DNA of 64,000 bases from NCBI GenBank assembly GCA_904392525.1, contig CAJFMW010000004.1, positions 1-64,000 on the forward strand, in the 5' to 3' direction. The notes beneath the pieces were generated by a model. The model was not told where the DNA came from. It saw nothing but the letters and a program-made list of their open reading frames with translations, and did not search any database. Made by a program: the position numbers and the translations under genes. Below are positions 20,068 through 55,315 of this stretch, in pieces. This stretch comes from an uncultured Eisenbergiella sp. Its GTDB lineage: Bacteria; Bacillota; Clostridia; Lachnospirales; Lachnospiraceae. The first letter of the stretch is position 1. Every line of letters begins with the position of its first letter.

Positions 20068-21027
20068 TCAGACCGGCTTCGTTTCCAGAATCCGGTCAAA
20101 CAGCTTTGCACAGGAAAGCGTCAGGGAATGGGGTACTACCCGGCTTTCCCCCCTGCCTGCGCGGATGCAGGAAACGGTTTCCTGAATTTCATAGATAAAA
20201 CCGTTTTTCGTTTCCGTATCCCGGAAAGAAATCCCTTCTCCGCCATCCTGCGGATAGAAAAAAGCCTCCGACGCATAATGCGGATGGGGAAGCACAATCC
20301 GCCCCCTGTCTCCGTAAATAACCGCTTTTTCCTCCAGAGCCGCATCGAAGCTCGCGGTAAGGGAGGCGCACATTTCCGGGAAATGAAGCACCACATGATC
20401 CGTCACATCCACCCCTGTCGGCCCCCAGACCGCAGATGCCGTAAGGCTGTCCTCCTCTCCGAGCAGAAATCTGGCAATCTCATAGACATACACTGTGATG
20501 TCGTAGGCTGCGCCGCCGCCCAGCAGCGGATTCCGGTAACGGTTTCCGGCATCCGGCGGAGCCAGAAAGCCGATATCGATCTGTGCAAAGGAAGGCTTTC
20601 CCGCGTATTCCTGCCTGATCCACTCCCGCGCCTGCTTCACCGCCGGAAGGAACCTGCTCCAGAGCGCTTCCATCACAAAGATTCCTTCCTTTTCAGATCG
20701 GGAAAACACCTCCTGCGCCTGCGCGCTGTTCAAAAATGCCGCTTTTTCACACAGAACCGGAACGCCGTGGTCCAGACACAGCATGGTGAGTTCATAGTGG
20801 GAATCCGGCGTAGTGGCGATATAAACGCAGTCCGGCTTTTCCTTTTCCAGCATCCGTTCATAATCTCCATAGGAGCCGCTGACTCCATTCTCTGCCGCCC
20901 ATTTCCCGGCCCTTTCTGCGGACTTGCTCGCCACAGCAGCGACCTCGCAGCCGGCCATGCGCGCTGCCTCACAGAATTTTCCTGCGATATTCCCCGCTCC
21001 CATAATTGCGAAACGAAATGTTTCCAT
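20068..21027 (-). CDS. Gfo/Idh/MocA family oxidoreductase
   Basis: METFRFAIMGAGNIAGKFCEAA...VPVLCEKAAFLN. Confidence 0.9.
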   Translation of the reverse strand: METFRFAIMGAGNIAGKFCEAARMAGCEVAAVASKSAERAGKWAAENGVSGSYGDYERMLEKEKPDCVYIATTPDSHYELTMLCLDHGVPVLCEKAAFLNSAQAQEVFSRSEKEGIFVMEALWSRFLPAVKQAREWIRQEYAGKPSFAQIDIGFLAPPDAGNRYRNPLLGGGAAYDITVYVYEIARFLLGEEDSLTASAVWGPTGVDVTDHVVLHFPEMCASLTASFDAALEEKAVIYGDRGRIVLPHPHYASEAFFYPQDGGEGISFRDTETKNGFIYEIQETVSCIRAGRGESRVVPHSLTLSCAKLFDRILETKPV

Positions 21028-21040
21028 AAATAACCTCCTT

Positions 21041-21195
21041 GCCGAAGCGTTTTACGCTGAGGCACGCGCGCCGAATCTCCAATTCGGCGCTGCGCAAGAC
21101 TACAAATCCCATAATGGGATTTGTAGTCTTAGGATTTGTGACGCTTCGGCACAAATCCAGGTTGAAAAATGCGCTATCGAGCGCATTTTTCAACC
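21041..21195. repeat. Multi-hairpin palindromic element, copy 1
   Basis: agcgt/acgct 21046-21058; gcgccgaat/attcggcgc 21068-21090; 16-bp perfect stem 21096-21130 (aagactacaaatccca taa tgggatttgtagtctt); ggatttgtg/cacaaatcc 21132-21158; 16-bp perfect stem 21160-21195 (ggttgaaaaatgcgct atcg agcgcatttttcaacc). Confidence 0.92.
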
Positions 21196-54165: not shown

Positions 54166-55155
54166 CTAAGGCGTCTTTGCTTCCAACGCCCACTTATCCC
54201 CGCCGTCCGGAGTATATTTGTTGTACATCCAGTTTCCGGTCAGCTCGTTGCGGATGCGCAGACATCCGTCCTCATCCTCCATCTCAAACAGAAGCATCCG
54301 TTCCTGGCCGCTTCTGTTCGGAGAATGCAGCCCCATCAGGAGCCTGCCCGCAAAGTCCGTAAAGAGCATGGAGTGGCCGCCGTCCTGGCTGAACAGGGGC
54401 TCCGGCTCCTGTTTCCAGGGCCCGGTGATCTCTCCGGACAGGGAACGGGCATAGCCGCAGGTGTAGGCTGTATTGGAAAAGCTGCTCCAGACCATGAGAA
54501 GCTCTCCGTTCTTCGCCCGATGCATGTAAGGGCCGTCCGTCACCCTGGCCCAGCCCATATGGGGCTGGGGCTCGGTCAGCTTCCACAGGCCCGACGGATC
54601 GGTGAACTTCCAGGGCGCTTCCGAAGCGCGGAACAGAATGACAGGCTCTCCGACGGAGTCTGACAGATCCTCCTTCATGCGGATGGCACAGATCTGACCG
54701 TCCTGTACCTGAAGCCATTCATGGCAGAACACCATCCAGGGATTTCCCTTTCTGTCCTCATACAGGGTTCCGTCCAGACACTGCCAGTCCGCAGGGGTGG
54801 CCGGGCCGTTCTTCTTCGGTACAAAGGGGCCTCTCGGAGTATCCGCCTCCAGGAACTGACAGCCCCGGTATCCGCCCGGCGCGCGGAAGGAGCTGATCAG
54901 ATAGTATTTTCCCCGCCAGTAATGACATTCCGGCGCCCAGAAATCAAGCGGCCCCCAGAAATCCTCATCCGGTTCAAACACGGGATAGCTTTCCGACCAC
55001 CAGATCAGGTCATCGCTATCCCGGACATTCACCGCACGCCCTTTCTGTCCCGGCCTGGCAAAGCAGTCGTACAGAAAATATTTCCGTTCTTCCCTGCTGG
55101 GAAGAATGCACACATCCCTCGTATGCAGATCCCTGACATGAATTTTTCCATTCAT
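54166..55155 (-). CDS. GH43-like beta-propeller glycoside hydrolase
   Basis: FWAPECHYWRGKYYLISSFRAPGGYRGCQFLEADTPRGPFVP; several possible ATGs (55155, 55161, 55173); SD spacing favours 55155. Confidence 0.85.
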   Translation of the reverse strand: MNGKIHVRDLHTRDVCILPSREERKYFLYDCFARPGQKGRAVNVRDSDDLIWWSESYPVFEPDEDFWGPLDFWAPECHYWRGKYYLISSFRAPGGYRGCQFLEADTPRGPFVPKKNGPATPADWQCLDGTLYEDRKGNPWMVFCHEWLQVQDGQICAIRMKEDLSDSVGEPVILFRASEAPWKFTDPSGLWKLTEPQPHMGWARVTDGPYMHRAKNGELLMVWSSFSNTAYTCGYARSLSGEITGPWKQEPEPLFSQDGGHSMLFTDFAGRLLMGLHSPNRSGQERMLLFEMEDEDGCLRIRNELTGNWMYNKYTPDGGDKWALEAKTP

Positions 55156-55173
55156 TTTCATTTTCCCCTCCAT

Positions 55174-55302
55174 GCCGAAGCGATACGCTGAGGCCGCGAG
55201 GAGAAATCACGCAGGTGATTTCTCCTCTGCGATCACAGCAGTTTTGTGCTTCGGCGCAAAACTGCTGATTGAAAAATAAGCCATCGGGCTTATTTTTCAA
55301 TC
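55174..55302. repeat. Multi-hairpin palindromic element, copy 2
   Basis: gccgaagcg...cgctgaggc; 13-bp stem 55198-55227; cagcagttttg/caaaactgctg 55236-55267; 16-bp stem 55267-55302 (gattgaaaaataagcc atcg ggcttatttttcaatc). Confidence 0.92.
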
Positions 55303-55315
55303 TTCCCCTGTATCT

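Follow-up and report, generated by a model that had tools for sequence, protein, structure and literature searches.

In the 64,000-nt window analyzed here (positions 1 to 64,000 of contig CAJFMW010000004.1, from an uncultured Eisenbergiella sp.), two folded elements lie on the minus strand, one directly before a GH43 gene and the other directly before a Gfo/Idh/MocA oxidoreductase gene (Table 1). Read in the sense of these genes, the first consists of P1, a near-perfect A/T-rich palindrome beginning with GATTGAAAAAT, P2, a hairpin with GCCGAAGC in its loop, P3, a variable hairpin, and P4, a hairpin with a 2x2 mismatch, and it is followed by a Shine-Dalgarno (SD) sequence, a short spacer and the start codon. 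The second copy has the same frame with an extra hairpin, which accounts for its greater length. The earlier note had described two copies with a shared layout, including a GCTTCGG-containing loop and a final palindromic hairpin, whose stems differ yet remain paired and which abut the SD of minus-strand carbohydrate genes, and this observation is confirmed. However, the boundaries need correction, since the inserted unit includes the AT before GGAGG, and the association with carbohydrate genes does not generalize.

Table 1. Features of the two element copies and their neighboring genes in the window.
Feature	Position	Strand	Description
Element, copy 2	55172..55302	-	whole inserted element, 131 nt, GATTG...CGGCAT
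P1 hairpin	55267..55302	-	GATTGAAAAATAAGCC-CGAT-GGCTTATTTTTCAATC; holds a TTG 5-6 nt after the upstream SD-like sequence
P2 hairpin	55236..55267	-	loop GCCGAAGC (55248-55255) pairs with the 3' arm of P4
P3 hairpin	55198..55227	-	GAGGAGAAATCAC / GTGATTTCTCCTC
P4 imperfect hairpin	55174..55194	-	GCCTCAGCG/CGCTTCGGC; 3' arm (55174-55182) is the pseudoknot partner
Downstream SD	55167..55171	-	GGAGG, serving the GH43 gene
Upstream SD-like region	55303..55310	-	AGGGGAAG; taken as the gene's former SD (locus L001 against L199)
GH43 gene	54166..55161	-	start ATG at 55161-55159
Element, copy 1 (sister)	21039..21195	-	157 nt; extra hairpin at 21096-21130
Downstream SD of copy 1	21034..21038	-	GGAGG
Gfo/Idh/MocA oxidoreductase gene	20068..21027	-	downstream of copy 1

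Copy number, distribution and covarying structure

A BLAST search of the own genome, a 3.3-Mb, 82%-complete MAG, gives dozens of copies on many contigs, with copies up to 98-100% identical at unrelated genes. A covariance model built from 22 divergent copies scores the two window copies at 116.7 and 94.3 bits, which is not chance, and finds 64 hits at E<=1e-3 in the genome, at least four of them opposite-strand shadows, leaving about 60 copies. The outcome that would have spoken against the earlier note, a covariance search returning only its two copies, therefore did not occur. Among 250 Lachnospiraceae genomes, 31 (30 of 249 genera) have hits at E<=1e-8, whereas in a class-wide draw of 392 Clostridia genomes, examined with strict filters, only two Lachnospiraceae scored at E<=1e-13 and nothing outside the family did. 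A search for plasmid carriage found none. Three unannotated human-faecal records labelled Bacteriophage sp. (MT838414.1, MT836788.1 and MT837007.1) carry a copy at 77-79% identity, but these may be bacterial contigs.

Compensation in the stems was tested on the alignment of the 22 divergent copies. P1, P2, P3 and the pseudoknot together have 94.5% of cells paired, with 28 of 50 pairs showing changes on both sides; 0 of 500 shuffles is as high, and slid controls fall to 34-49% paired. P4, as the alternative to the pseudoknot, fares similarly, and the pseudoknot between the P2 loop and the 3' arm of P4 is 92% paired on its own. Additionally, over 66 non-redundant copies from many genera, own loop-arm pairs beat permuted ones in 2000 of 2000 trials, with at least four different pairing sequences (CCGAAGCG, CCGGAGCG, CGCAGACG and TCTGAGCG loops with matching arms). 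In the stems, departures from Watson-Crick pairing are G.T and A.C about equally (55 against 57), as palindrome self-correction in DNA would give, which we read as possible DNA-level palindrome copying. Only the pseudoknot leans to G.U over A.C (11 against 2, in a fixed register), as sense-strand RNA would, although cells are not independent and this is a lean rather than proof.

Placement at Shine-Dalgarno sequences and comparison with empty sites

A query lacking the SD found 34 distinct copies in the own genome that reach the 3' end. All 34 are followed by an SD and 33 by a start codon with an ORF. In 74 copies from other genera, 69 have a start codon with an ORF within 18 nt after the element (60 of them at 5-6 nt), and 70 have an SD-like sequence in the 12 nt upstream, against 16% of background windows. 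Orientation relative to the gene is constant. Tandem arrays occur at L141, L162, L249 and L280 (loci are numbered with the prefix L), in which each copy's 3' SD serves as the upstream SD of the next. In contrast, a degenerate copy with a broken P2 loop, around position 1501 of L243, appears to lie inside a coding region rather than before a start codon.

Orthologous sites in related genomes are empty, with the gene's own SD intact, whereas the filled site has the form SD-[131-158 bp]-SD-ATG. Specifically, L165 is empty (CAGGGAGGTAAAAATGTC) where L167 reads CAGGGAGGTAA[GATTG..CGGCAT]GGAGGTAAAAATGTC, L185 is empty (ATGGAGGGAAAATATGGC) where the own-genome copy L041 reads ATGGAGGGAAA[GATTG..CGGCAT]GGAGGTAAAGATGGC, and L184 is empty (ACGGAGGAAAATAATTATG) where L039 reads ACGGAGGGAAAGA[..]GGAGGTAATTATG. 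Further filled/empty pairs are L165/L167, L037/L188, L028/L181 and L100/L127. Some of the empty sites carry element relics and are thus decayed rather than virgin. The resident SD is kept upstream, and a second GGAGG, which may be target-derived or carried, comes with, or next to, the element. The base after GGAGG matches between the upstream and downstream sides no more than chance (8 of 21, p=0.42), although the whole flanks correlate weakly (p=0.004); a simple 8-bp target-site duplication, suggested by the first empty site comparison, was not upheld by this larger set. Copies with 5' truncation or internal deletion are common, and relics of the 3' end (GCTTCGGMAT before GGAGG) mark 31 of 269 SD-led gene starts in 747 kb from five relatives, against 0-1 for control motifs. 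Just downstream of the element at L063 (GGAGGAAGATTGAAAAATATGAAA), an 11-nt stub of the element's 5' end (GATTGAAAAAT) lies between SD and ATG, as if a second insertion had been almost wholly deleted.

Downstream genes are functionally unrelated and include GH43, Gfo/Idh/MocA, obgE, ruvA, smpB, mnmE, a carbon-nitrogen hydrolase, MerR, galT and an S4 protein, which argues against a dedicated regulator, carbohydrate-specific or otherwise, and for a tolerated insertion. At L225 (1318-1631) the element lies between a SAM riboswitch and the regulated gene's start codon, and at L221 (1501-1958) between a T-box leader and that of its gene. A start codon (TTG, GTG, ATG or CTG) sits at the head of P1 at normal spacing from the resident SD in most copies, namely in 63 of 74 copies from other genera and in all 73 Eisenbergiella copies, whose detection required TG; L226 and the second L233 copy lack it. 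In 65 other-genus copies, 24 of these frames stay open beyond the element, against 1 and 9 in the two other frames, whereas 34 of 65 stop well inside it. At L003, L019, L033, L121 and L127, from the own and related genomes, this start codon is in frame with the downstream gene without a stop, so that automated annotation may extend these proteins N-terminally.

A mobile element aimed at ribosome-binding sites as the best reading

Taken together, these findings are best read as a non-autonomous mobile palindromic element that inserts 3' of an SD, in the orientation of the gene, and would carry its own SD, a reading to which we assign a probability of about 0.82. What the sequences themselves show is a unit of 131-158 bp (GATTG/GTGTG...CGGMAT-GGAGG) just 3' of a resident SD, a second SD at its 3' end at normal spacing from the start codon, its absence from orthologous sites, and dispersed copies that are sometimes near-identical or in tandem and that decay. 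All evidence is comparative, and the mechanism of mobility, any regulatory role and the continued translation of the gene are inferred. In this view, the old SD stays upstream and the element's own ATGGAGG replaces it, so that expression of even core genes is tolerated and the element is not purged. The transcript would fold into P1-P4, with the P2 loop and the 5' arm of P4 competing for the strand right before the SD, leaving the SD exposed beside a stable structure, and the same folded strand, as ssDNA or RNA, is probably what an unidentified trans-acting enzyme recognizes. Weighing against this reading, the element has no terminal inverted repeats, no mobilizing enzyme was found, and no autonomous longer copy either: searches by P4 without a nearby P1, and by P1-only hits in three genera, returned only truncated or internally deleted copies.

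The interpretation offered in the earlier note is partly supported. Structure is conserved through compensatory change and the copies abut SDs, as it had proposed, and no named Rfam family matches at threshold, but the carbohydrate-gene link is not supported and, because the element is a mobile repeat with orthologous empty sites, covariation alone does not show RNA function.

Other readings account for parts of these data. A cis-regulatory RNA that controls translation by toggling the P2 loop between the P4 3' arm pseudoknot and the P4 hairpin would fit the covariation of the pseudoknot across genera, its lean to G.U and its position 2-3 nt from the SD. It is nevertheless unlikely, since neither alternative sequesters the SD itself, the downstream genes share no theme, near-identical copies sit at unrelated loci with empty orthologous sites, and copies occur in tandem and inside SAM and T-box leaders. 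A mobile upstream-ORF cassette, translated from the NTG of P1 and in some copies adding an N-terminal extension to the host gene, is somewhat less improbable but still doubtful: the frame bias and the in-frame fusions favor it, yet peptide length is not conserved and the stem constrains the sequence, which may explain the open frame. Translation of the element is thus likely but not shown to be selected. Movement through an RNA intermediate, primed by the target's bottom strand annealing to the GGAGG at the 3' end of the transcript, agrees with the sense orientation, the intact 3' ends of many 5'-truncated copies, the lack of inverted repeats and the resident SD in the target. However, 5' truncation could also reflect decay or selection for the 3' SD, one sequence pattern used to collect copies required the 3' end and so biases towards 5'-truncated ones, and no reverse transcriptase was linked. 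The evidence leaves room for, but makes improbable, a bacterial SINE-like element of this type, in which a structured leader RNA would use the SD at its 3' end both to find new genes' ribosome-binding sites and to restore their translation after insertion.

Membership in the Rfam family TD-2 (RF03162), whose host group is Treponema, is the least likely of these readings. The TD-2 model matches full length on the strand opposite to the gene at 44.4 bits (E=5.5e-6 for 171 nt), with three hairpins in the same order and similar loops and arms, and L019 gives 40.8 bits. These scores are below the gathering score of 48.7, none of 20 loci from other genera reaches it, and the TD-2 model as aligned has no P4, pseudoknot or SD; no Rfam family matches at its threshold.

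Comparison with described repeats gives partial resemblances. The YPAL/RU-2 repeat of Yersinia (PMC2229807) is about 168 bp, with internal inverted repeats, no terminal TA motif, known empty and filled sites and duplications of variable length, but it belongs to a different host group and its targets are next to dyad symmetry rather than SDs, with no carried SD described in the text consulted. Rickettsia palindromic elements (RPE; PMC2229807, PMC10969869) are likewise short, palindromic and non-autonomous and can be read as protein sequence fused to genes, but they insert in frame inside ORFs, whereas the present element sits between SD and start codon. BOX elements of Streptococcus pneumoniae (PMC3049150) are modular dispersed repeats with stable hairpins upstream of genes, and are not known to target or carry an SD. 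Like a MITE (DDE-transposase-derived), the element is dispersed, multicopy and non-coding with empty orthologous sites, but its ends, GATTG/GTGTG and CGGMAT, are not inverted copies of each other. REP/RAYT systems share dispersed hairpin repeats with bulged stems mobilized in trans; mobilization by a Y1/RAYT-type transposase is unlikely here, as Y1_Tnp was not found in the own, 82%-complete MAG and is rarer in element-positive Lachnospiraceae genomes (9 of 31) than in element-negative ones (128 of 219). A relation to IS110/bridge-RNA or TnpB/omega-RNA elements would call for a linked recombinase or nuclease using the element's RNA as guide, and no autonomous copy was found. Within the literature that could be searched, no paper on such an element, and no such target preference, was found.

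Mobile elements usually avoid or break the few bases that a gene needs to be translated. This family appears to aim at exactly those bases, in core genes too, and to repair them on arrival, in at least 30 Lachnospiraceae genera sampled. That would be a new targeting strategy for a mobile element and an unrecognized reshaping of 5' leaders in abundant gut bacteria, as well as a trap for annotation, in which start codons shift and structured leader RNAs look like regulators.
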